A program made the position numbers and the translations under genes. The notes below the pieces were generated by a model. The model was not told where the DNA came from. It was given only the letters and a program-made list of their open reading frames with translations, and searched no databases. This document shows positions 5,870 to 61,298 of a stretch of DNA of 64,000 nucleotides, in pieces. Location: positions 7,267,264 through 7,331,263 of the forward strand of contig NC_092583.1 of assembly GCF_037975245.1 (NCBI RefSeq), read 5' to 3'. Source of the DNA: Apostichopus japonicus (lineage: Eukaryota > Echinodermata > Holothuroidea > Aspidochirotida > Stichopodidae). Numbering within the stretch: the stretch's first letter is position 1; the number at the start of each line of letters is the position of its first letter.

Positions 5870-6840
5870 TTTCTGCTGCTGAAGTAATTCTTCCTTCTCA
5901 TCCTTCAATGTTTTCAGTTCTATTCAGTTGTATTCAATCTATCTAAGAAGTGTTGTCTTTCCTCCTCTGTTGCCTTCCATGTATCTTTGAATTACTGTCT
6001 CTCCTCCCTTGTTGTCTTTAGTCTTCCATTCAGCTGTTGTTCTTCTTCCTCTGTTCCCTTCCAATGTATCTTTCAATTCTTGTCTTTTCTCCTCTGTTGT
6101 ATTTAGTCTTCCATTCAGCTGTTGTCTCTCTTCCTCCTCTGTTGCCTTCAATGTATTTTTCAATCGTTGTCTTTCCTCCTCTGGTGTCTTTAATGCTCCA
6201 ATACAGTTGTTATTCTTCTTCCTCCTCTGTTGTCTTCAATGTATTTTTCAATTATCATCTTTCCTCGTTTGTTGTCTTCAGTCTATCATTCAGCTGTTGT
6301 CTCCCTTCCTCCTCTGTTGCCTTCAATGTATTTTTCAATTGTTGTCCTTCCTCCTCTGGTGTCTTTAGTCTTCCAATGAGTGGTTGTTCTTCTCCATCTG
6401 TTACCTTCAATGTATCTTTCAATTGTTGTCCTTCCTCCTCTGTTGTTTTAGGTCTTCCATTCACCTGTTTCTTCCTCCTCTGTTGTCTTCAATATCTTTT
6501 TCAATTGTTGTCTTTCCTTCTTTCCGTCTTGCCTTCAATGCATATTGACTTGCTGTCTTTTCTCCACTGTTGTCTTTAGTCTTCATCTAACTTGTTGTCT
6601 CATATATTCTGATTCCTTTAGTTTATTACTGAGTTGATGTCTCTCTTCCTCTGTAGCTTGAAGTCTTCCAGTAATTAGATGTTTTTCACATTCTGATATT
6701 GTTAGTTTACCAGTGAGCTGTTGTCCTCTGATGCCTTTAGTCTTCTAATAAGCTGCTGTTTTTCATCGTCTGATTCAGTTAGTTTATGAGAAGAGTTTTT
6801 ACCTTTCGTCTTCCAATGCTTTTAGTACTTGTTTGGTACT
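5870..6840 (-). pseudogene. Tandem heptad-repeat coiled-coil coding array, broken
   Basis: Read on the minus strand, this is a run of 14-15-residue units of the type LKATEEEGRQQLN / LKTTEEERQQLKD, two heptads each, encoded by 42-45-bp DNA repeats. Open pieces lie in different frames (6255-6464 and 5939-6163), and an older, more varied stretch extends to about 6840. The composition (E, Q, K, L) is that of a long parallel coiled coil. It lies just upstream, in gene direction, of the decayed coiled-coil exon at 4851-4925, so it is probably the N-terminal rod of the same duplicated gene. Frame changes and lack of clear splice sites suggest it is not translated here. Confidence 0.55.
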
Positions 6841-6941
6841 AACTTTGAATATGAAATAAACATATAAACTGCAAACATGGCTAAAGAGTGTCTTCCACCG
6901 AAAAGATTTAATGATGCAAATAAATACAGTTCAATGTATAT

Positions 6942-11869: not shown

Positions 11870-13779
11870 GTCCTGATGAGCCTCACCCACTCTCCCCGAA
11901 CTTGCTAACGAGGACCTTATGGATGCCTCGTTTCTGAGATACCCCGAGCCAGCCAGGAAACTTATTACTAATACCAGACCTGTGATGGAAGGCAGTCATA
12001 CTCATTGGAAGCAAAGGTGGATAAAGTCACTGCCCGACCTCCTCAGTTTGCTGAGAGTGAACCATGGAGGAGGACTCCTGTCAGTAATGAAAACAGAACA
12101 TTGCCACAAAATAATGTACATGTGGATGTGAATCTTTGGAGGCACTTTTGGAGAGTGTGTCACCCAGAGAGACCAGAGGGGGAGTGCCAGACAGGCCAAC
12201 CAGCCCTTGGTCTTATAATGATATGGGTGGGAGGGGAGTTAATGGACCTCAATACCCCTCTAGTCAGCACAGACCTCAAGAGCCCGAGATTCACTATGCA
12301 CAAGTTGACATTGAGCCGACAAAATCTAGACAACCAAGTCGACAGCCAGCTGAACCGGTAATGTATGCCCACATCCAGGCGAAACCGACGAATAATCAGC
12401 ATATGTCACAGCCATCATTAGAACTTTCACAGCCTCCCTCATTTAGGTGTCGGAACCATGTACCAGCGGGTTCCCAGCCATCCTAGCCAGTGCCTGTTAC
12501 ATCTCCACAACAGCCTCATAACCCGGTAGAGGAACCAATCTCCAAAACTCAACTGTCACCTACCAAGGTGGTCATTGAGGACTTGCCATCAAACAGATTA
12601 GGTCAGCCTAACCGCCATCACCCGTGGATGGTCAGACGACACCATCCTCTCATACAATGCCCATTGATGCCCAAGTTGTGGTTGAAAACAGACAACAAGT
12701 GGTGAACTCTTCTCCTGCTTATGTCAAGCCATCACAGTCCCTATCTGCTGTATCAGGACAGATGCAACCAACATCAACAACTGTTTACCCAGGTCAACAA
12801 CCAACAGCACAGCTTGACAACCCTGGGCCACATCCACCATCAAGTCGATCACCAAATGCTCAACAAGTCGTACCACACTACATGCAACAGCCGCAGCGTG
12901 CCGTCATAGAGCAGTCTGTTCCCCGGTCACATCAAAATGTGCCTGTGCAGCAGTCACCGTATGGTTACCCTCAACGTGTGCCCAGGTAGACAGCTCTCCA
13001 GCACACCCCTCAACAGTATGCCTCCCCTCAACAGTATGCCTCCTCTCAACAGTATGCCTCTCCTCATCAAGCACATATTTCACCATTGCAAGTACAACCG
13101 ACACAACAACATGCACCTCATAGGGTGGTGTATACTCAGGAGATCAAAAAAGAAACAGTGCAGTCGCAGCAGTATCAGCCTCGGATGCAACTACAACAGC
13201 AACCAGCGTCCCCTCAACAACAGCAGCAGCCATTGTACCAGCAGCAACAACCTCAACAGCAACAACAACAGCGACCTGTACAGCAACAGCAACAGCAACA
13301 GCAATTATATGAACAAGAACAGGCACAGTCACAACAGCAACAGCATTTACATCAACGAGAACAGCCACAACAAGAGCAGACAACATACAAACATCGGCAG
13401 CAACATCCTCAGTTGCAACGACTTCAGCAACAGAGTCCAGGAGGGGAACCGCCTGCTATTAGTTTCTCTGAGGCCACGCCCCCTCCAAACACGTCAACCA
13501 ACAGGAGTCTCCCATTTTCCAGCAGGGTGTGGGAGGGGTGGAATCAGCTAGGTCACCTGATCTCCAGAGTCTGGAACCGACAAGTGGACCGCCACCAGTG
13601 TATCCTACCTACAGTGATCGTATGAAGAACAAGCCACAACCTCTCTATCCCACATTCAGTGACAGACACAGGAGAGGCCATCCACGGATAGACGAGTCGT
13701 TTGCGAGCCCACCAAACGGGAATTACAAAACACTGTACGACAACAGGAGTGGTAATAGAGGAAGGGGTTCCTCAGGAAG
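11870..13779 (+). CDS. TNS: Tensin long disordered exon, Pro/Gln-rich, with several frame breaks
   Basis: This 1.9-kb exon has an acceptor at 11869 and a GTAAGA donor at 13780. It encodes low-complexity linker: a segment with tyrosine motifs YAQV and YAHI (about 12290-12375), a Pro/Ser/Gln stretch (12500-13080), a polyglutamine tract (about 13150-13440) and a basic end (13530-13779, with two YPTYSD/YPTFSD-type motifs). Coding character is continuous but changes frame near 11890, 11980, 12130, 12610 and 13515, and meets in-frame TAG at 12484 and 12987. Both stops fall in Gln-rich context and would be CAG with a single C. The downstream exons show no such damage. Assembly indels, a divergent haplotype, or real loss of this linker with use of a downstream start are all possible. 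Confidence 0.75.
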
Positions 13780-46767: not shown

Positions 46768-47727
46768 TTATTCTGGGCACATTGTTGCTTGAACTACAGG
46801 ATTTTTACTTCTGAATTTTCTGACAAGTTTCGCACATTCTTCATTTCCTTGTTCTGTTAGGGTATTTTCCAATTTTGTGATGTTTGTTGGAGATATCAGT
46901 GAATTTTTGGTCAGCTTCTCTAATAAAGGAGTTCCTGGTTTTTTGTGCTTCTTGATATCAGAGATTCCTTCCTCGGAAAGTTGGAAAATATTTGCCAGCA
47001 GTGCAGATTGGTCAACATCAAGATGTTCTGATAAGTTCTGCTTTAGCTGATCAAAAGAATTGATGATGGCTGTGAGGTTGAAAGAAGAGGCGGAAATTGC
47101 AAATACGTTAAATACATTACTCTACATACTGTTAATTCAACAGAACCTGTTTCATGCAAACAACATTCAGAATTGAGACAACAGTGATGTGTTTCTTACA
47201 CACACTGGCAAAATAAACCTTAAACGCTCAGTTTTCAATGATGCCAAATATAAAATCTGATTTAACTCCAGAATGTATATTTTGAAAGAGGGTTTTATTT
47301 CATTACTTTCTATTTTTCACTGCAGTGTGACTTCAATACATTCTTTATACCCAGTCTTTAAGTGTGTTGCTTTGGTGTCAAAATTGATGTTTCCTTAATA
47401 TCAAATATTGCAAAACGCTCATAGTTAGTCCCCCTCTTGACATAGCAATTGCAGCCAGACTCCTCTGTGCAAAGTAGGATTAGGTGCACACATCTGATAT
47501 GTAAGGAATTGTAGGCAGTATGTTAAATGTTCATGTATGAAAAGTAAGATTACATGTACACATCTCATATGTAAGGACTGTAAGGCAAACATCAAACATT
47601 TAACATATAATCGCCTACATTTAATTAACATGCTATTAAATTTTAATCATGTTATTAATTACTTACATTCAGGTAGGACGAGTTGGAATGGAGATGTGAT
47701 TTGGTCAATATGTAGTAATTTGTCAAT
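46768..47727 (-). CDS. Linker exon and third DED-like fold, C terminus
   Basis: Exon 47667-47727 (61 bp, phase 0 to 1) leads into 46768-47069. The latter has six-helix character: SFDQLKQNLSEHL, SALLANIFQLSEEGISDIKK, then LLEKLTKNSLISPTNITKLE and CAKLVRKF. The segment LLEKL..NSLISPTNITKLENTL resembles the DED pattern of an LLE-like motif followed by a leucine-rich helix 5. It is not a classical death domain by eye; DED is the better guess. Stop TAA is at 46768-46770. Confidence 0.8.
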
Positions 47728-50700
47728 CTGTGAAGAGGAAATGAATCAATTGACAGTGTGTATCAAACTGTGGTTTAAGTGATAATGTTAATATATGCTA
47801 ATTAGTACTTACTGTTTAGGATATTTGGTATGTATTATATTTGTGATATGAAGACTTATAATAAGGATACATGATGTTTTAATCCTGTATTACGGAAATA
47901 AGTTCATCAAGTTAAGCGAACAAAGTAGAGATTTCAATAGAAATAAAAACATGACTTAATTTGAGAATGCAATAACGGTAAAAAAACAAAATAAATAAAT
48001 ATAAAAGGAGTCTCAGTAGTTAAGATAAATCCAAAGTAAAACATTAAATTCCTTGTATTCAAATTTTTCTTTGTGTTAATTTAAACCAAAATCAAGTTAC
48101 CTGCAACTGAATATTAAGCTGGAATAAATTCTTCACTGACATTCCATATCTTGCTTCTATTTTCAGATGGACAGTATCTTTGAGCCCTTTATTCTGAAGA
48201 CGGAATTCTACCTTGTGTCTGTTCTTTACCCATAGGGTTTCCATAGCAACATCCTTGAAAAGAGAAATATCAAGTAATGATTATTCATTTATCAAAATTT
48301 TGAGGGCTTTGACCATTGTGGTCAAGTTGTTAGGGCACCAGGCTTGCAATTTAAAGGATGCAGCTCCCAATCCTGGTCGACTGGATCGTTATGATCTGGC
48401 CTTGGGCAAGGGAATTAACCTCAACTGCCTGTCTTCATCCAGGTGTAAACATTGGAAAATGCAAAGTAATTTGTAAATATAGCTGTGTGCTTTACTTTGA
48501 CAGCACCCATGTACCCCAGTGGACACATATATGGTAAACTGAAGTACTTTATGACCAACTAATGGAATTATGTATATTGATATTCATGGGTTTTGTAAAG
48601 TCATTTAAGAAGGGGTTAGCATTCAGGCAAGACTATCAAATATATCAACTTCATATTCTGTACAGCTCTTATGAGCTTTGAACAGAATGATTATTCGTAT
48701 TAGCATATTAACAAAATAAAAATAAACAAGGGACTATAACATTTACAAACATAACAAAGTAGTTATATAATCAATACATGGACAGTTAATGAGGATGGAA
48801 TGAAGGACTAGTCCATAATGAAATCAACTGTATAGACAAAGCAGCTGGGACTATCTGACCCCTTTTCTTTCATTGCATATCATAGCAATCACAGGAGACA
48901 ATTTTAAAATAGATAATGTTTATTTAAATAACAACAAATGATTACACCATATACATACAAGTAAATAGATGCATATAACTTTACTTCCAACAAATGCAAA
49001 TTACCCTTAAAACAGGAATTAGCTGCATTCTTTACATGTTGCCAACAAATAAATATGAATATTTAACAAATATTACTAACCACTTTTCTAGGATGTGGGT
49101 TACACTCTGGTGTACTGGAGTTAGTGCTAACATATAAAGTTGAAGTCATAGATTTGAGTTGAACAGACACAGACACAGGATCATGAATTATGGTTCCCTT
49201 TTGCTGGTAGATTTCTTCATTGATAAGACTCTATTAATACGAAATGAAACAGATAATATATATGATTATTTATGTAAATTTGAATATTTACAACAATGCA
49301 CACACTGATTAGTTGTCCTATGTATGACCAGGAAGCAATACCAGCTCCGCAGAATGTCCCTCTCTGGCGTGGTCATTCTTCGATAATAAATGGAGATGTT
49401 ACAAATATCTAATATAATTGAGTGGCTGATAGGATGCATTATCAAAGACCTTTAATAGTCTGACAGCCTTTGTTCTGAAATATAAATCTTTGTCTAATCT
49501 TGGACACCTGGTCAAGGTGTGTTTACAAATGTGTCTGTAATTACAAAACTTGTTGTCAGTTGTCAATGACCACCATCAATAAATTATGAACATTCGGTTT
49601 TGTTCTAGGACATCTGATCAGTGCATTGTGACCACTACAACGTTATAATGTTCAACCATTAATGGCCACAGGAACCAGCTTATCTCACTTGACCCTCCCT
49701 TAACTATTTCATCACAGTTTGACTGTCAGAAGGGTTCGGCCTGTAGAGCATCAAGCTAGAACTATTTCATTTTCATCGCTATGGTTAACAAGGTATCAAC
49801 CCTGTACAATTCTGTGTATTAACCATTTGTCATTCAGAAAGGCAGACAACTGGAATTCATGAGATATTTAAAATACCACTTGAGCTGACAAGATCTGCTA
49901 CTTACCTCATGTTCCAGTTTGTCATCATTATGAAACCAAAGATGGATTGCCATGTGATCCCCCGAATCAGAAACTCTGTTAACAATCGGTAAAATACAAA
50001 TACGCTTCCTCATCTTAGCTATGGAAGGGACATGAAGACCAATGAGACAGGGTTTCTGAGCTTCAACTTCAAGGTGCTGACTATTCATAGAGCAGCTGAG
50101 GTGTTTCCTTTCTAAGCTCCATTTGACAGATTTATCTGAAGGAAATTTTGAAACATTTTGCTTGTAAGGTTTTATAACATGGTGAAAGGTAGAACACCAA
50201 TCCTAAACTATACCATAGGTGACTTTGAAGGGACAGTCTGGTGGTAGAAAATGCATCACTGCATACATAGAACATCACAGTAGTAAAATATTATGTTTCT
50301 AATTCTATGTATGGATGCAAGGTCACTAGATAAAACCCTGAAGTTTAACACAGCTTGAAGGGTATAATTTCCCTTTGGTTATGTTGCTTATTTCATTTTG
50401 AAATGTTTGCTCTCAAGGTACAACTAAACGTTTCTTGAAGTGATTGAGATGATTTGTCTGGAAATTACCTCCTTCTTGAGATATTGGCTTTTACATTACA
50501 CAGAGTCAGAATGCTTAGTGATTTTCTTCCCAATATTGTGTTTGCGTACTCAGGTGGCTTCATATATCAATTGTGACTCTAAATAGTACATGCGAAGTTC
50601 ACACAACCTGTCTTGAATCATTCTGCTTACAATGTTTCAGACTTTGTCCTCTACAGAAAAAACAGTTTTTTATTAAAATTCATTTAACATGGAACCACAC

Positions 50701-53700
50701 ACCCAGTGTCAAATAACACCATTATGCACTTTGAAGCATGCTAAAAAGTCAATAGGTGGTACACACAAGCTCATATACATATTTCTGTGATAAAATAAAT
50801 ATTATTGACTATATATAATGCTCACTGGAGTAGAAAAACACACAGCAAAAAAACAAAAAAAAAACAGACCTGTTTGTAAGACCCCAGAGTACACATCAAG
50901 ACCCATCTGGTTAGTTGTAGTGAAAGCACAGTGTGGAATAATCAAGGTGACAGGCTTGTGTAAAGTAAGGCTTTCTGGACCAAATTTCACAAAGGGGGTC
51001 AACCTTAGATTCTTGTTTGAGGAAGGTCCTTTAATGGCAGGTTCAGTAGAAACCCACAGACTAACAATCCTTCCAGTGTGTAGTGCCCCAGCTGGTACAC
51101 GCAGAATGACACCTGCGATAACTACCTCTCCTCCATGCTGATCAAAGTATTGTTCCTTATAAAGATTTGACCCTGGGAACAAAGGAAGTCTCTCTAGAGG
51201 AGAAAAGTAATATATTTCATGTGAAAGGAATGTATTTGCCACTTTCATTTAACATGTGTTAATTGCATATACTGTTTCAATTCACATCATGAAAGTAGCC
51301 TCTTTAACACAAATCTGCCTTAATCTTTTGGCTATTTGTAGAAATTACAATACTGAAATGTGGAACAGTGAAAATAAGTCATGTTTGATGTGAGTAATGG
51401 AAATAGATGTAGAAGAGAAATTTTCATTAGCAGTAACAAGACTAATAGGTTTATTTACAGCATCTAGATTGCATATCTATTTTGTAGCTTATTGGTAGTA
51501 ATATTCCTACAAAACTAAATAAAAGATACATTTTCTTCCATGAACACTGGAGCAGCCAAGGGCATGAAATGTGGTCCTCGATTGTCATATAAGAGTGAGG
51601 TTCATTATATCAGGAAATATAAATAAGATATAAAAATGTAGCTGAATATATGGGTACTTTACCATGCTCTTCCTTAGCAAGCAGCAATATCCGTCTTCCC
51701 AAGTCCAGCTTTCCACGAGACAATTTCAAGGCTCTTTGGACATCCAGTCTCTTGTATCCCTCTTCTATCAACATTTTGAAATTGACTGACAATTGTGGTT
51801 CCCTCTTTGAAATGACTACCGGTTTCTCTGGAACTTTTACCTGAAACAATAATGTTGAAATATTACAATTGTTTATAAAATTTACATTTTTTATCATTCT
51901 TTATGAAGATAGAAAACTACTTACTGCGTTTGATTTGGCTAAGTAAATTTCTACACAGACTTCCTGTACATTTGATATTTATAAACGTATCTTTAAGTAT
52001 ACAGAAACTGTCACAATTAGTGGAAGGATGAGTTTTCAGATAGACTTGTATGACACCAAAAAGAATACTTTTCATTCGGAAAGTACAGTCTGTACTAGGC
52101 CTTCCAACCTTCTAAGATCTTGATTTTATTCAAAGTGACTTTTGTTTTGCTTCACGCTTATCATGTTAAGTGTTAACAAGTTTTTATTAAGCACAAACCA
52201 TTTTCTTATCATCTTTCTCTTCTTCATTTTCCTTTCCATTCTTCTCATGTGACATGTCAATGTACTCCAGCACCAGTCTTGCCAGCTTATTAAAGTGAAT
52301 AGCTTTCAATCCTTCATACAGTCCAATCATTCTGTCTGGCATGATGAGCTCTCTTTCATCCAATATTTTCATCAGCTTCTTTCCAGATTCTGCTGCTTCC
52401 TGAATTGTTTCATTTTCTGCTGGCTTGAGCCCAAAGAACATGCCTAGCGTTTTACAATGTTGTTTATCCAGAAACTTTGCAATGTCTCCTTTCAATTTTT
52501 CATACATTTGTAAGTCTGAAAGTGAGGACAACAACATTCAAATTACATTCGAAGGAGAGAAAAGACTAGATTCGCATGTATAACTAAATGTGCATGAACC
52601 ACAGGTTAATTGTGTGTCAGGTTTGAACAACATTTGAGCAATGTTCACAACTAACATGCACAAGAGAGTACACAACTGGCCCACAAGGAGCATACAACCT
52701 GCATGGAGAACGTTGGTGCGTGCACACAATAAAATGGTTAAGTTTACTGTCCAAAACGTTCCTGCAACTTTTCAACTATTAGCCCTCGTCTTGGGCATAA
52801 ATTCTAGTCTTGTATACAGTTTCACTTTCAAAAGCTGCTTTGAGCTACAAAGTAGTTGTTGATTAAATGTTTCCCAATAAACTAAGTTGTTATAAGTGAC
52901 ACTTAGGTGTGTCTACTTCTAAAACCAAATGCTACTACATTTTCACCTTTACTTCACACTCACGAGGGTCCATGTTCTGAATGTGTGCTTACTTTTTCAT
53001 CTCTACTAATGCACACTTACCTGGTGCATGTCTAAGATAATGAGCATTCATTATATTTTTTTGTTCCAACTTCACTTACATGCAGGTCAGGGCGGACTGT
53101 TAAAACTACTATGAGTCCAACCATTTGTTCAAATTCCACTTAAAAAACTCACCTGGATGTAGTTCTCCAAAAAGAATTTCCTTGCTTTCTGGAGATAAGA
53201 GAATGTTTTTCACCTGAAGAAAAAAACCAAAAATATATGAACAATGAACCCTTACATGTATGAATGTTTAACATACAATAGTGCAGACTGTCTTACACAC
53301 CCCTGTGAATGAATAGGTTTAAAGTAGGAATGTAATTTAGAAAAATTGGGCTGAAACAGACATGGAACAATACATAATAAATGTGTGAAATCCCAAGGAA
53401 AGGAATCTTGATGACAACAGATCTATCATTTATGGAGTATTTAATTTGTACCTAAGATATCCACAAAACAAAGTTTCCAATTACTATTGACCTGTGCGTT
53501 GAATAAAACAGAGGTTATATGTATATTTTGTTTTCAGCATTTCACTGCATTTTGAGTTACTCATTAATTACAGAATAACAGCCTACTACTATAAAATTCA
53601 ATTGTCATCCACAATGAATATTACAAAAAAAAAGGATCCATGAGAGAACATGTATGTATGTATTTTAGATCCTCCTGCAAGCAGGAACTAGCGAAGAAGC

Positions 53701-56700
53701 CATCACTGGCTTCTAAAAGCCGCAAGCTGACCGAAGTCAGTCTGTTAGTTTCATATTTGAGTGTCCATGATTATGAATTGTCAAAAACTCTGTAACTGGA
53801 TGACATACATTAATCTTGGAGTAATTCGAACCCGGGACCTTATGATTGAAAGGCACCGGCTTTAACCACTGAGCTTACACTCCTAACATTCCAACAAATA
53901 ACTATAATTCAGTCGCAGCACTGACATTATTCAGTCAGCCTGAAAACAGTTGCAAGACTTCCAGCAGACAGGACATTACTAAGCAAAGAAATGATCAGAA
54001 GAGAGGAGTCGCCGCTGTTTATTATGTAATGAAGAGTCATATGAGAACACAAACAGCTGGAAGACAATCAGCGGACATAACTCACCTTTGATTGGAGGAT
54101 AAGGGCTGTCTGGTTCATTTCATGTTGTGATACTGTTAACTTCACATCAACCATGTCAGTGTCTCCATCATTGTTTCTTTTAAGTCTGAACTGATGAGAG
54201 ACTCTACTGGCAGCACAGAGGTGATCAATGTCTACATGCTAATGGATAAAAGATATTGAAGATCAATTATACTGAGGATGAAAATGCTTGATATGTACTC
54301 AAAGAAACAATGCCACATAAATATAAAATAATTAAGGTGAACATGGTAATTTCATTAAAGAATTCCATAACAACATTTAGGTTAATTTTGTCCCATGGGG
54401 TAAGAACCCTACAGATATAAAGTCGAGCCATAGAAGTTCCTGTGATTGTAGATGTATACCGGCATATATCAATCCTTCTGTTTTTGATGAGTGTTCAGTT
54501 TTATTACTGGGAAGGCATGTAATTGTCTCACTCATTCCTTCTCATAGGAGAGCCACCTAATGAATAACCCATTCCCGCAACTAAAAATTTGCCACAGCAC
54601 CTGAACACTACCTGAAAATACAAAGGGAGGTGAATTAAAGACAGCCTCATTCGTGATTTCAAAAGTGCAGCCATGGTGAGTGAAGCTTTTTATCAAACCA
54701 TGTGAACGAATATAGGACCAAACTTTTCTATCTAATTTTACTGAATATACCATCTCTCACAAGATTCTGCTAAACAACACTGCCCACCAGACGTTTGCAT
54801 CAATTCTGGACCATATTGGGTATTTTTTACCACAAAGCGGTTGTTGTAGGGCCATAATTCTAACCACTACAACATTTTGATCCAATTTGGGTAACCAATA
54901 CTTAACTACTAGTTTTCCATGTAATGCTAGATGACAAATTTGAATAACATTGGTGATTACAAACCTTTCTTGATTCTTCTTTCATCAGATGGTAACTATC
55001 ACTGGGCGATGACATCATCAGATCAATGAAAGAGGCATAATCTCTGCCGTCATTCAATGTCCGGGTAACTTGATATGTTGTATAGTTTCCTAGACTGAGT
55101 TTGGAATGGTGGTCCTCTAACAACATCTAAAACAAAAGAACATGGATAAGTAACTGAACAAAAAGCAGAGTTAATTATGCAATTTGTTGTGCGGATTCAC
55201 TCTTCTTCATCAATACTGCTATAGCAGGTAACAGCAGCTTTTGTTCCCTTAATTTATAAAAATTATCAATTTGTGTTGCTTGTTTTCATCCGATCCTCTA
55301 AATTCTTGATACAAATTAAGTGTAAATGTCTGTATTTTAAATGTAACAGTGTTTTCTTTTTGATGAGCTATAATAACCAATAAATATGTCACACAAATAC
55401 TACTTTAACTAATCAGTTCATAATTTGTCATTACAACTTGATATCATTCTTTTTACAAATCATGAAAGAAAGCAAGATTCCCAGTATCCTACCTACAAAT
55501 CACAGCACAAAGCAGAATTCACCTCAAACTGCTACACATATCACCACGGTAACAGGAGATTATCCTCACCTTGTACTCTTCATCACTGTCCTTACAGAAA
55601 CAAATAGTTATTAAAACATCATCTTTTGCATCCAGTATCCCGTCAATAAATGGAACAATACGGAATATATGCTTCTGTTCTGTTTCTTGGCTGACTAAAT
55701 TAACAAAGACGAAGCTCAGGATGTTAATATCAAGACTGATCTTCTCCGGGTCTAGCTTCCAATCAACAGATTTCTTCTCAGTCCAAGTGATTTCACCTAT
55801 AATAAGTAATATTATATAAAAATTTAACTTGGTAATCTTAAATACAGTAAATATGAAGAGCTTATTAAAATAGATATATTTTACCCTACTGATTCTCAGA
55901 ATTTAACTCAATTTACTCCTGCTTACATCAAATGCATTGAAAGTGTTCTTTGGTCACCATCTTTACCTTCTTGTAAATTTTCTTCATCTTTCAGACCAGT
56001 GAAGATAATAACATCATGTCGATCTGGCTCAGGGATAATAGCCGAGTGAGGAATAGTCAGCTGGGCTGGCTTGTTGAGGGCCAGTCCTTCTGGCTCTAGT
56101 TTGATCAGGGGTGTCATTCTGCCTCTACGAGCACTTCCAGGGAGGTGTATGTCAGGATCATAAATCACTTTAACAGAAATTACACCTTCACAGGATAAAG
56201 CGTCTTCCGGAATAGTCAGATGTACCCCCATCATGCTAATAGTTCCACCTTCACATTTTATCCTGTGTTCAATGTATGAGTGATGGTGCCTCATTTCAAG
56301 TATAGTTGAATCATTTCTTTGTTTTGGTAGTTCTTCTCTCTCTGTTCCCTCCATCGAACTCTCCTGACTATGGTCATAATCTTCCTCTCTTTCTTCAGAA
56401 ACTTGTGATGGAGTTGATCCATCATCAGGGACAAATTTGACATTTTCAACTAAAAATAGAATAATAGAAACACAACCACCAGTAACTAATGCTTCGATAT
56501 AGAAAACCAGAATACCAAAATGCATAGTAGTTTCGATGATGTAACATGAGCAGTTTTCTTCCTGAACTGACATAATGTTTACGTAGTGAGGGTCTACAAC
56601 ATACTTGATCTTTTAGTAATACAGTGAAAAGCAGTGTGATGTAACAACAATTACTTCACAATGACACAGGCTGTCCTGAAATTACCATTGACCTGAACAA

Positions 56701-59700
56701 CAGGCTTCTTGTACTAAATGTGATAGATACTGTACATCAACATACTAAATATAACATCTGTCCCCTGGTGAAATATTGTGTAAAGCATGGTTTTCACAAT
56801 TTTTCCCCTGGTGAACTCAAACAACCATTATACTCTGCCCACAGCTTTAGGCTTCTTGAACTGAATGTGGAACAATAACATACCCAAAAAATGCGATCTA
56901 TCTAGGCTTCCCTTGTAATATTATGTTTAAGAATACCTGTTAGTGTAAAGAGACAGGTACGAGGGGAGTGAGGTAAATGTTTGGCATTTGTTGACTTCAA
57001 ATGACCGTTGATCTTGTCCAAAAGCAATAATAGGCTCCTCAAATTTGATATGGTACATTTAAAAACCAAATATGAGATCCGTCCAAGGTTTTCTTCTGGC
57101 AATATCAAGTTTAGAAGGCTTTCACGATTTGACATGTTGTCCCCAAATGACCTTTGACCTCCACCAAAATCAAAAGCATTCTTTTGCTTTATGTATACAC
57201 CTTCATACCAAATATGGGGTCTTCCCGTCTTGAGATATGTTTACAATTTTTTTAACAATTCGACCCCTGGTGACCTTAAATGACCTTTGACCTCTACAAA
57301 AAAGGCTTCTTGTACTCAACGTGGCCTCTACTGTTTGTAGCTTTAATGTATGTTTATATCCTTTTATAAGTTTAATGTTATAAACCTTTTAGGCGATATT
57401 TTGTACTATTTGCTTTTGAATGTTTCCTGTATTTTAAATGTTTCCTGTATTTTAAATGTTTACTGTGTATTAATTATTTCAATTCCTGTAAAGCGCTTCG
57501 AGCAACGTTGCTGATGAACGCGCTATATAAGTACTATTTTATTATTATTTTTATTATTACTGTACTATTTTTGTTTTATGTATTCTGATTGCATCTTTCA
57601 ATTCGTTCTTACCTGGCCAGTCAAGCAGTTCTGGTGATTGGTTCTCTTCAAACTGAAACGGGTCAACTTTAGACTGATATGGGGCTAAAAGGTTCTCATT
57701 TGTGTAGTATAGCTGAATATAAACCAAACCCTTTTGTAGGTTAGTGACATCGTACATGTTGATGATGTTTCGTGTTTTCATGAAGTTGATCAGAGTGATT
57801 CCCGGTGTCTCTATCTGAGAAACCCGGCGTAGCATATCAGTTTCTGCCGGTGGTAGACCAAATAGAATTGCTAATTTCAGTGTGCTGTCTAGAGTAAGAT
57901 CGTCGGCAACATTGACCATTAATCTGCCGTAATCAGCTAAAATGTAAATAAAAGTAAGAATAAAATATAGTTAAAGATAATACTCAGTACAACAAACCAA
58001 TTGATTAAACTGATTATTAAATAATGCATGAGATCACATTTTCCAATTAATCATTTGATTATTAGATTGCTTTGTATGTCATTAATCTATAACAACAAAG
58101 TACATTTCTTTAAAATCAGTTTAATAGCCTAAGAAGATATAATCAATGTGGAATATGAATAAATTCCTTTTTGAAGTACTATTGATGTAGCTCCTCATCT
58201 ACACAACAAGCATCTGTGTTTCCATAGCAACTTTAACTGTCACCTTTTTAGATCAAAATTGATTCCCAAATCTTAAATATACTTTACCGTTATAAGGAGG
58301 GTGTGATCTACCTCATTTGATGACAGAAAAGTAGAAACATTATAAAGAGGAATTAGATGAGGCTTTTATTTTCTACAATATTTCACAGGAAAGACATTGC
58401 AGGTGTTGATATGCCCTATGTTATTTGCTTTTCGACCCCGGCGATATGTATATAAATCTATACGTCACACTTTACACTCAGAAAACATATCAACCATCAG
58501 GGTCTTGTGATGTGCCCCTGACGCTACTAACCATGTATGTGTTTCTAACACTGTGTCAAATCGAAATTGTCACAGTTTCGTATCCAACAGAACGCACATT
58601 GGATTGACAATGTTAATTGCTTTAGTTTTGGACAATGACAACGTTGAAATTTATTTTCTCGTGTCAGAAAATGCTTGGTCTGTGCTGGTTAGTGCATCTA
58701 ATGCACTTAGGCTTGCGTTGCCAAGGAACAGTTAATCCTGTCGTTTGCTACCTACGTCAATGTACACTGTACACATACAGTCCTGATATGCTGCATGTGT
58801 TTCATCTGCAGTTCTATCTTTTTAAAGGAACTAGCATCTTAACATCATATAGCTAAAATGCTATGTTTCTCAAGTTTGTCTCAGGACTGTGGCAGTTATC
58901 TGATGATGACAGTTCTAAGTCTTACCATGGAGCACATCACATGACCCTCCATGGTTGTTTTGTTTATTTTTCAAACATCTCCTAATATTTAAGTGGTCTA
59001 GCCTTCCTTAATATGTCTATGATCGACTCCCAAATGACCTTAGTTTAATTGCTATAAATTTGTGTATTGCTTCGGGTGAGAAAGAAGAACCAGGAAGAGA
59101 TTAACAAGGAAGACTACGCATCTTGTACAATCATTCCCATATCAAATCCGCATTGGCATTTAATATATTCAATTAATTGCCGGACTTCCATTTAAACAGA
59201 TTTAACTTTTTTTCCATGATACCTCTTGATTTATTTACACCTGTGCACAGCTCACTTGAATTTTCAATATCTCAACATGATTGACAGTTTTAAAATTAAA
59301 TAGACTAAAGGCCCACCCCCCCCCCTGTCCCTCTTCCTACATCTCCCCTGACAGCTTTGAAGATCTGCAGGTAGGACTATTCAAAAACAGACAGACCGAT
59401 ATAAGGAAACATTGTACTGCTTGCTTGAAATTTACATTGAGCAGCAGCAATGATCTTTTCATTGTGATCCTACCTGCCAAAGTTGATTTCTGTGATGCGT
59501 CTTGAGTTTCACACTCTTCAAGTAGGGTTTCTTCCGCCGTAACAGATGCATATGAAGCCTGCAAATAAAAAACATAGAAAATATATCTTATGATGAACTG
59601 AAACTTTAGACTAGAGGGAAACGCCTCCCAGCGGTTACTTGCCTTGACCTCCACCCAAAATAAAAGGGTTCTTGTACTCACTATAAAGAATACCCATGCC

Positions 59701-61298
59701 AGATATGAGCTTTGTTATGTAACACATTTTGATATATCATGTTTTAAAGGTTTTTGTATAAGGCTTTAAAGAATATGATCTTTGATGACCCCAAATGACC
59801 TTTGACCTCCACCACAAGCAATTAGGTTCTTGTATTCATTATAAGGAAGCCACAAAATACAGCCAACAAAGTTTCCTATTTTGAAGATCTTTTTACCCCT
59901 GATGACCATATATGAACTCTTGACGTACACCAACTTGTAAAGGGAAAACTACATAAGGCTATCCTACAGTGCATATGAACTCCTTCGATGTTCAGGTTCT
60001 GGAGATTGTTTGAGATTTCACATTTTGCCCTCTGCTGACCCCAAATGACTTTTTGACCTCCACCCAAACCTATAGGGTTATTTTTACTGATTGTGGCCAA
60101 ATATGACAACTGCAGAGTTTGTTGATCTTAGTCTGCCTATGATAAGTAACCAAAAGAACCTCAGTTTTCCTATCTATCGACTGTCAATTTACACCAATTT
60201 TGTCTTAAGGTGATATAAGCAACTGATTCAAGCATATGTGAATGTACCCATACTCACTTCACACTGCATGTAATCTAACGGAGCATGAATTTAGAACATT
60301 TAAAACTCATTGAACTATTTTCTGTAAAGCTCAAGATTATGTTGTCACCTTGTAATACCTTCAACAGTGGAATATTTATCATAAATTCAACACATTTATA
60401 ATTTAGTCACAATATGATCCTAACTTCATAAACTCAAGCTTCTTGTCTACTGGTGGTATACTGGCTACACACACACTGTTCTTAAGTAATAATTCACTTA
60501 CTTAACTTAATCATACTTTTAGAGCACATTTCACACTTTCCCAGATCGTGCGCCCGGTATTGTCTGATCAGTAAATCCGGCACATGATCCATGGGTCTGA
60601 TCTATCATGAATCGGGATGTTCCGTAGCTATCTGTAGCAACCCGTACCGATCCGGCCTTCGGATACGTTATTGAACTTTTTTTACAAAAATATGAGTCTA
60701 ACCTACAGATAAAAAACTTGTAGATGACCCGAAGCAACCCGTAGACGACCCGTAAACAATATTTAGCAACCCCATGTAGTGGACCTAGTAAGCCGTGATC
60801 ACGTGATCTGTTGGTGCTGATATAGGTACGTATTGGTACATATGGAAACGGATCGTGTCAAGTATTGGTACGTATGCACTACGGCTGATACAACTTGCTA
60901 TGGGTTGGATCTTCTTGTGACGGCTTTGTAATAACCCATCATGGATAAACATCCCGTAGAAAGCCGTAGTAGAACCCTAAGTTCTCTGTTCACGGGATAG
61001 ACCGGGAAATATATCTGTAACAATCCTTATCAACCCATAACAACGCCGTAGTAACCCATACTGGACCCATATCAACCCGTCCTGGATACGCATCATCGCC
61101 TTGCGCTACAGATCGTTCAAAGCTGTAACCCGATCTGGGAAAGTGTGAAAGGGGCTTTACCAATTCTTGTTGATTCAAGGCTTCCCTAGTCTGTTTCAAG
61201 ACCTCTTGTAAGGCCATGGATTCTTTGGCATATTCCAGTTGAGACTTCACAAGTTCATCTTTTGTAGCTCTCAGACTTGATTTAGCCTCTTCCAGCTC
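46768..61298 (-). CDS. Multi-domain protein: coiled coil, DED-like, ZU5, UPA, DED-like, UBA-like, ZU5, UPA, DED-like (5' incomplete)
   Basis: Sixteen exons on the minus strand join without a frame break into 1,115 codons plus TAA (numbering from the first visible exon): 61161-61298, 59474-59558, 57613-57936, 55967-56449, 55570-55796, 54965-55126, 54086-54238, 53153-53213, 52199-52515, 51663-51840, 50870-51193, 49906-50135, 49081-49230, 48101-48253, 47667-47727 and 46768-47069. Domains: coiled coil 1-46, DED-like about 76-165, ZU5 about 245-340, UPA 344-524, DED-like about 547-635, UBA-like about 665-705, ZU5 about 720-817, UPA 818-995, DED-like about 1016-1100. ZU5-UPA followed by a death fold is known in UNC5, ankyrins and PIDD. 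Two such modules with DED-like folds suggest a signalling scaffold in apoptosis or immunity (inference). The start codon lies beyond 61298, probably outside the window. Confidence 0.88.
48101..50135 (-). CDS. Second UPA domain, three exons
   Basis: Exons 49906-50135, 49081-49230 and 48101-48253 (153 bp) follow ZU5-2. Beta-rich sequence includes EAQKPCLIGLHVPSIAKMRK, ILPIVNRVSDSGDHMAIHLW and KVEFRLQNKGLKDTVHLKIE. At the place where UPA of PIDD or FIIND begins with His-Phe-Ser, this one reads RKHLSCSMNSQHLEVE, so no Phe-Ser cleavage pair is present. Confidence 0.75.
48313..48500 (+). repeat. Probable tRNA-derived SINE in an intron
   Basis: A tRNA-like head (gtcaagttgttagggcacca as A box, cccaatcctggtc as a worn B box) is followed by ccttgggcaagg, a motif common in animal SINE bodies. 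It is diverged, and the ends are approximate. Confidence 0.5.
50870..51193 (-). CDS. Second ZU5 domain
   Basis: A single 324-bp exon (phase 1 in, phase 1 out). It has the ZU5 landmarks GGEVVIAGVILRVPAGALHT, then LRLTPFVKFGPESLTLHKPV and TLIIPHCAF, closely parallel to ZU5-1. The domain fold is that of ankyrin, ZO-1 and UNC5 ZU5 units. Confidence 0.9.
51663..51840 (-). CDS. UBA-like exon
   Basis: The 178-bp exon encodes a short lead and then FKMLIEEGYKRLDVQRALKL followed by GKLDLGRRILLLAKEEH. This matches the three-helix ubiquitin-associated pattern (M-L-x-E-E-G-Y, D-V-x-R-A-L, A/G-R-x-I-L). It lies between the second DED-like fold and ZU5-2, and is absent from the corresponding place before ZU5-1. 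Ubiquitin binding is inferred from pattern only. Confidence 0.6.
52199..53213 (-). CDS. Linker exon and second DED-like fold
   Basis: Exon 53153-53213 (61 bp, phase 0 to 1, the same size and phase as 47667-47727) joins 52199-52515. The latter reads LQMYEKLKGDIAKFLDKQHC, LGMFFGLKPAENETIQEAAE and KLMKILDERELIMPDRMIGL, then YEGLKAIHFNKLARLVLEYI. It has the helix spacing of a death effector domain, then a charged tail (NGKENEEEKDDKK). The donor is GTTTGT. Confidence 0.8.
53650..53886 (-). repeat. tRNA-derived SINE, minus-strand copy
   Basis: Complementary to and clearly the same family as 4938-5164. Read on the minus strand it has gtaagctcagtggtt (A box), gggttcgaatt (B box), the same body and a tacatacatac-type tail. 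It lies in the intron between exons 54086-54238 and 53153-53213. Confidence 0.85.
54086..55796 (-). CDS. First UPA domain, three exons
   Basis: Exons 55570-55796, 54965-55126 and 54086-54238 (153 bp). The start of UPA reads KISLDINILSFVFVNLVSQE, the strand where PIDD-type proteins have Phe-Ser. Here it is Ser-Phe-Val, so autoproteolysis is unlikely. Then come HIFRIVPFIDGILDAKDDVL and HQFRLKRNNDGDTDMVDVKL. The size of the last exon equals that of UPA-2. Confidence 0.78.
55967..56449 (-). CDS. First ZU5 domain with acidic lead
   Basis: The 483-bp exon (phase 1 to 1) has an acidic, Ser-rich linker of about 65 residues (EEREEDYDHSQESSMEGTER). A ZU5 fold follows, with GGTISMMGVHLTIPEDALSC, RMTPLIKLEPEGLALNKPAQ and LTIPHSAIIPEP. 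It matches ZU5-2 in order and spacing. Confidence 0.9.
57000..57330 (+). repeat. Interspersed TGACCTTTGACC repeat in an intron
   Basis: About 130-170-bp units contain ccccaaatgacctttgacctcc plus ttcttgtactcaa and ccaaatatg. Related blocks are at 1975-2480 and 59630-60110. Perfect TGACCTTTGACCT occurs at 57148 and 57281. Confidence 0.75.
57465..57562 (+). repeat. Retroposon 3' tail with ATT repeat
   Basis: cctgtaaagcgcttcgagca, then gcgctatataagtacta and a (TTA)n run. This is the kind of 3' tail shared by many animal SINEs and L2-like LINEs. The body upstream was not recognised. Confidence 0.6.
57613..57936 (-). CDS. First DED-like fold
   Basis: The 324-bp exon (phase 1 to 1) reads DLTLDSTLKLAILFGLPPAE, MLRRVSQIETPGITLINFMK and TRNIINMYDVTNLQKGLVYI, then a proline-containing linker. 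Helix spacing parallels the other two death-effector-like folds, but identity is low; this is the most diverged of the three. Confidence 0.7.
59474..59558 (-). CDS. Short linker exon
   Basis: The 85-bp exon (phase 0 to 1) encodes an acidic, Ser/Thr-rich linker (ASYASVTAEETLLEECETQD). It joins the coiled-coil exon to the first DED-like fold. Acceptor is ttatttgcag, donor GTAGGA. Confidence 0.75.
60525..61155. mobile_element. DNA transposon with CCGTA-rich subterminal repeats (copy 2)
   Basis: Ends TTTCACACTTTCCCAGATCG and its complement are nearly perfect over 20 bp. The interior has many cccgta/tacgg motifs. It is the uninterrupted counterpart of 2903-4844. Its edge lies only about four bases from the splice donor of the exon at 61161-61298. 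Confidence 0.85.
61161..61298 (-). CDS. Coiled-coil exon, most 5' visible exon of the DED-ZU5-UPA gene
   Basis: A 138-bp, phase 0-0 exon with acceptor tgtatgacag and donor GTAAAG encodes 46 residues of continuous heptads (ELEEAKSSLRATKDELVKSQ ... ALQEVLKQTREALNQQEL). The style suggests a longer rod encoded upstream, like the heptad array at 5870-6840 in the decayed copy. Confidence 0.78.

Follow-up and report, generated by a model that had tools for sequence, protein, structure and literature searches.

The 64,000-nucleotide stretch of the Apostichopus japonicus genome analysed here (the window) carries, on its minus strand, 16 exons of a gene running from 61298 to 46768, with AG/GT borders and compatible phases throughout (Table 1). 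The gene encodes a protein in which a module of ZU5, UPA and death effector domain (DED) occurs twice, behind a coiled coil and an N-terminal propeller. It belongs to a large multi-copy intracellular family, some members of which are labelled netrin receptors in databases. The variable propeller front end looks like a putative recognition surface, as in a sensor of innate immunity or cell death.

Gene structure

The first open exon chain obtained from splice borders was a draft of 939 residues, 89-100% of which was covered by each of nine single-protein relatives. Of the 16 window exons, 13 matched a public A. japonicus protein of 1851 aa, P0052 (named 'uncharacterized protein isoform X2'), at 94.5-100%, as did three outer exons (tblastn, 93% filter); the remaining window exons, those of the linker, UPA1d and UBA, did not pass this filter, and some alignments overran exon ends. 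Relatives were also aligned to the window and 14 flanking 10-kb stretches to locate further exons. The gene starts upstream of 61298, its propeller, DED-like and coiled-coil repeat exons lying outside the window. A 19-exon splice chain encodes P0052 from residue 8 to residue 1851; all 1844 aligned residues are identical, and an alternative splice site was chosen at three places (+21 residues). The exon for the first seven residues was not located. The whole gene covers about 27 kb and its product has about 1850 residues. An earlier note, made from the sequence alone, had read the 16 exons as one open chain, and the borders, phases and identity to P0052 bear this out. P0052, the Holothuria proteins and the same-strand pairing of ZU5 exons in 45 of 48 paralogous copies (below) rule out two separate genes.

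Table 1. Exons of the doubled ZU5-UPA-DED gene (window coordinates unless stated)
Feature	Position	Strand	Evidence
Coiled-coil repeat exon, continued by 61161..61298	G000:C23:7331811-7332908, outside window		
Coiled-coil exon, 138 nt	61161..61298	-	tblastn of P0052 97.9%; splice borders
Short linker exon, 85 nt	59474..59558	-	19-exon splice chain
DED1 exon, six-helix death-effector-like domain	57613..57936	-	predicted structure, profile link to DED2
Linker and ZU5a exon	55967..56449	-	Pfam ZU5 E 2.3e-8 (joined first module)
UPA1a exon, 227 nt, phase 1-0	55570..55796	-	splice chain, P0052 match
UPA1b exon, 162 nt, phase 0-0	54965..55126	-	splice chain, P0052 match
UPA1c exon, 153 nt with P0052-supported donor (19-exon chain itself took a donor 9 nt farther), phase 0-0	54086..54238	-	splice chain, P0052 match
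UPA1d exon, 61 nt, phase 0-1	53153..53213	-	splice chain
DED2 exon, death effector domain with best support	52199..52515	-	
UBA-like three-helix exon	51663..51840	-	weak CBL UBA profile match; low-confidence model
ZU5b exon	50870..51193	-	Pfam ZU5 E 7.7e-12; 48 or more copies in the genome
UPA2a exon, 230 nt, phase 1-0	49906..50135	-	splice chain, P0052 match
UPA2b exon, 150 nt, phase 0-0	49081..49230	-	splice chain, P0052 match
UPA2c exon, 153 nt, phase 0-0	48101..48253	-	splice chain, P0052 match
UPA2d exon, 61 nt, phase 0-1	47667..47727	-	splice chain, P0052 match
DED3 exon including stop codon	46768..47069	-	predicted structure, profile link to DED2

Domain architecture

The order DED-ZU5-UPA-DED-UBA-ZU5-UPA-DED, as proposed in the earlier note, holds in the window gene, while the three death folds that it placed behind a coiled coil are actually four DED-like domains (DED0 to DED3) and an N-terminal propeller. 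The Pfam profile search that it had suggested found ZU5 twice (E 1.3e-20, 73.8 bits against a cut-off of 21); UPA and UBA gave no Pfam match in the window-gene protein. UNC5B is the best solved match of ZU5-UPA (profile E 1.9e-9). The propeller is six-bladed and of NHL type, a fold present in the gene family, and the Brat NHL (5ex7, 4zlr) and Trim71 (8j72) structures stand near the top of the solved propellers in our comparison.

In the Pfam search, DED scored below its cut-off (E 1.8e-4, 22.1 bits against 35.9). DED2 has both the sequence and the fold of a death effector domain. DED0, DED1 and DED3 are candidate DEDs, tied to DED2 by profile links and with no direct match above cut-off. DED1 has six helices in a model of the relative P0002 (block pLDDT, the predicted local distance difference test, 72-84 except two blocks at 56 and 59) and no Pfam DED match; its link to DED2 has a probability of 96.3. 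DED3 is likewise predicted to have six helices (block pLDDT mostly 77-90), with a weak Pfam DED match (E 0.086) and a link to DED2 at 97.9. Neither link was reached by any of 60 shuffles. A sequence search of PDB chains with the four DED profiles gave zero DED chains: DED2 returned nothing, and the rows found with DED1 (two, one of them a Fas death domain at E 1.2), DED3 (a tRNA synthetase alone, 0.011) and DED0 (ten rows, 0.27 or worse) were taken as chance. Sub-cut-off Pfam matches to PI3K_C2, LysM, COX7C and coiled-coil families were treated as noise. The UBA-like exon is modelled at low confidence as three helices (block pLDDT about 34-63), and six CBL/CBL-B UBA rows matched it at E 0.0096-0.47, in a search that also gave an unrelated ribosomal chain at 0.0035.

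Scanned against Pfam at E 0.01, P0052 showed no Ig, TSP1, RING, B-box or NACHT domain, and hydropathy alone indicated no transmembrane stretch (peak 19-residue Kyte-Doolittle mean 1.28); the higher peaks of the relatives P0001 (1.86) and P0043 (1.71) lie inside the propeller and inside ZU5, respectively. There was also no Pfam match to TRADD-N, a domain for which PMC8195603 describes borderline iterative searches. Autoproteolysis of FIIND and PIDD requires an F-S dipeptide. At the corresponding column P0052 has L-S in the first UPA and P-C in the second, so FIIND-type self-cleavage of this protein is unlikely; P0015 and P0017 have F-S. In PMC11760013 the cleavage site, S1213, sits between ZU5 and UPA.

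Internal duplication and phylogenetic range

The exons that follow ZU5 enter in phases 1,0,0,0,1 in both halves and the last UPA exon is 61 nt in each, the pattern that internal duplication of one ZU5-UPA-DED unit would leave. A first-ZU5 (ZU5a-type) exon lies upstream on the same strand, within 25 kb and at 4.0-14.3 kb, for 45 of 48 paralogous second-ZU5 (ZU5b) exons. The repeated phases, the 61-nt exon and these pairs thus place the doubled module beyond chance.

All relatives returned by the protein searches (41, 23 and 71 rows) belong to A. japonicus or Holothuria (leucospilota), each search scoring about 7990 candidates with the most shared words, a scope that does not establish absence from other animals. 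The order DED1-ZU5-UPA-DED2-UBA-ZU5-UPA-DED3 is complete in 27 of 78 relatives (22 A. japonicus, 5 Holothuria), and 21 of these 27 also have the propeller sequence; the remaining 51 are without part of the order, many being short or partial models. Hence the architecture, which the earlier note did not recognise, is not peculiar to the window gene, and no description of it was found among the titles and abstracts listed by searches of the open-licence literature. Apostichopus and Holothuria share an order but not a family, so the doubling probably predates their divergence.

Two predicted proteins, P0031 (A. japonicus) and P0067 (Holothuria), have a NACHT domain alongside the family modules, either as real fusions or through merged gene models. 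P0031, P0067, P0015 and P0017 may owe their NACHT and Death-domain C-termini to such merging, and these ends were excluded from the evidence.

Genomic copies

A genome profile search with PF00791 gave at least 150 matches (best 150 of 204 candidates) and the ZU5b exon at least 104 (best 150 of 171 candidates). At least 48 ZU5b copies, one partial, have 70% identity or more, and none of the 48 contains a stop; they are distributed over contigs C15 (18), C23 (14), C19 (10), C16 (4) and C11 (2). The propeller query gave 123 genome matches, of which 110 were used (five split tails, five matches on C6 and three short ones were left out). They fall into 51 with an identity of 59% or more, two of which carry a stop codon, and 59 below 50%; C12 carries 52 of the 110. 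A propeller lies within 60 kb upstream on the same strand for 44 of 48 ZU5b exons (43 distinct propellers); the figure for the other side is 23 of 48, which is in keeping with tandem arrays.

On C12, a propeller occurs within 40 kb upstream of 41 of 69 ZU5 rows taken from the PF00791 search and on the other side of 9 of 69, so that a second propeller-ZU5 family is likely on this contig, at about 19-34 Mb. Its members probably end in a Death domain, as does P0015, a protein with the F-S motif. The Death-type C-terminus of P0015 was matched at 82-91% by the ZU5 loci L007 and L008 (C12) and L006 (C16) and at 67% by L004 (C12); the other four of the eight PF00791 loci compared had no match or a weak one.

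Selection on the propeller

Selection is uneven between the domains and between the faces of the propeller. The ratio of nonsynonymous to synonymous change (dN/dS) was obtained, like all ratios and face figures here, by plain counting with no tree. For the window gene against its downstream paralogue it was 1.21 (0.79-2.10) in the propeller, 0.89 (0.50-1.63) in DED0 and 0.39 (0.28-0.55) across the half that spans DED1 to DED3. For 18 propeller exons (16 fetched stop-free copies with the window and downstream genes) it was 0.85 (0.65-1.12), and for 19 ZU5a exons 0.40 (0.25-0.63).

Propeller loops (0.97) and strands (0.74) had overlapping ranges, and the most variable sites were in or beside the D-A and B-C loops. 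Face X was defined as these loops with the adjoining strand halves, a division from face Y drawn after the variable sites had been seen and with 8 mid-strand sites set aside. The ratio was 1.34 (1.02-1.87) for the 125 sites of face X and 0.51 (0.33-0.78) for the 137 sites of face Y, a difference that 1000 label permutations reached once and 261 circular shifts twice. Of the 20 leading nonsynonymous sites 19 lay on face X, as did 26 of the leading 30 and 35 of the leading 40. Differences among Holothuria propellers were also higher on face X (0.403, 121 columns) than on face Y (0.332, 114 columns), with four to six propellers per column and two of the six proteins partial. Out of 5000 permutations, 165 reached this difference, as did 5 of the 234 shifts; an earlier test with coarser cutting gave 0.425 versus 0.299 (46 and 43 columns; 88 of 5000 permutations).

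Discussion

We read the product as a cytosolic, receptor-like oligomeric sensor, diversified in the germline, in which a propeller ligand would free autoinhibited DEDs for death or inflammatory signalling, and give this reading a probability of about one in two. The earlier note's suggestion, a scaffold that oligomerises and serves innate immunity or cell death, agrees with the propeller, the four DED-like domains, the coiled coil, the large germline family and the uneven propeller selection, and it is still an interpretation. The ligand would be captured by the variable face of the N-terminal six-bladed NHL-type propeller, and DED0 and the long coiled coil may keep the protein oligomeric, the coiled coil gathering copies. 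The ZU5-UPA-death module of UNC5B is closed on itself; by comparison, the two ZU5-UPA modules may hold the adjacent DEDs shut until bound ligand opens them and the DEDs are released. DED signalling proceeds through filaments that form and recruit caspase-8. Freed DEDs could in this way seed a DED assembly, recruit a FADD/caspase-8-like or other DED partner and lead to cell death or inflammatory signalling, the putative immune role. The family may have multiplied and diversified as a germline sensor repertoire. Our wider proposal, more tentative, is of a repertoire of about 50 cytosolic receptors (perhaps about 100 with the C12 family) with a hypervariable NHL-type propeller face and a doubled, autoinhibited DED-ZU5-UPA arrangement, parallel to the NLRs and misfiled as netrin receptors with a neural role.

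Among described systems, the closest are the DED/TRADD-N expansions seen in marine invertebrates: PMC8195603 reports DED-bearing families in many copies, some of which carry variable WD40 propellers, and TRADD-N fusions to FIIND and UPA-ZU5. The present family differs in its NHL-like N-terminal propeller, its doubled ZU5-UPA-DED unit and the lack of a Pfam TRADD-N match. NLRP1 and CARD8 (FIIND) and PIDD1 differ from P0052, in which both modules are without the F-S dipeptide, no NACHT was detected and DEDs stand where those proteins have a CARD or death domain.

A rival account, in line with database names, takes the genes for UNC5 netrin receptors that multiplied to serve the nervous system. 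UniRef names some members so, 15 of the 78 proteins bear the visible name 'Netrin receptor UNC5', and the 2017 genome paper gives 234 netrin receptor genes in A. japonicus and reads the expansion as neural (PMC5638244). The window gene does resemble UNC5 in having ZU5-UPA, the UNC5 cytoplasmic module with its profile match to UNC5B, before a death-fold domain. However, the module is doubled, DEDs replace the death domain, an NHL-type propeller and coiled coil stand in front, and neither Ig, TSP1 nor a transmembrane part was detected in P0052, all of which leaves the netrin-receptor account very improbable. An RNA sensor or regulator, with a propeller that binds RNA as those of Brat and TRIM71 do and DEDs that respond to foreign or self RNA, would suit the RNA-bound Brat and Trim71 structures among the closest folds. 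TRIM2, TRIM3, TRIM71 and Brat also combine a six-bladed NHL propeller with a coiled coil in one protein, but in the window gene the propeller comes first, not last, with no Pfam RING or B-box and with a DED/ZU5/UPA tail. We consider this account unlikely, as a common fold proves no function and identity to the Brat and Trim71 chains is 11-15%.

Clustered multi-copy genes with a variable face could serve self/non-self recognition, or a cell-death scaffold in development or regeneration, rather than pathogen sensing. Sea cucumbers expel and then regrow organs, which would give such a scaffold a setting, but no result here ties the gene to regeneration or self-recognition and we regard this as rather improbable. 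Alternatively, the family may reflect plain recent growth by tandem duplication with a relaxed N-terminal half and no special recognition role. Pairwise synonymous divergence (dS) of 0.08-0.13 among three C23 copies, the tandem clusters and a whole-propeller dN/dS not above 1 are in keeping with this, and constraint is also weak in DED0 (0.89) and in the linker ahead of ZU5a (0.77). We nevertheless consider this account unlikely, given the near absence of stops (0 of 48 ZU5b exons; two among the 51 propeller copies with 59% identity or more) and an excess that lies on one propeller face and is repeated blade by blade.

If the sensor reading is true, part or more of one of the largest reported sea-cucumber family expansions would consist of intracellular sensors and not axon-guidance receptors, and its message on the nervous system versus immunity would change. 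The family would also offer a natural doubled ZU5-UPA-DED switch and a receptor-like diversifying propeller face, both open to direct test.

Other observations

The coiled-coil exon of the family contains 14-residue repeats of the TEEERQQLTGRLKT type, whose number differs greatly among paralogues; across 19 proteins, ERQQ occurs 1 to 16 times per protein. An orphan copy of this exon lies on the minus strand at window 5870-6926 and looks like a gene relic, since it has stops in all three frames. The interval that separates the window gene from the next paralogue holds more coiled-coil and DED1 fragments (G000:C23:7372032-7370334 and 7362944-7362705). On the plus strand, window 12910-13625 holds two overlapping open frames of more than 200 codons, one of them glutamine-rich.
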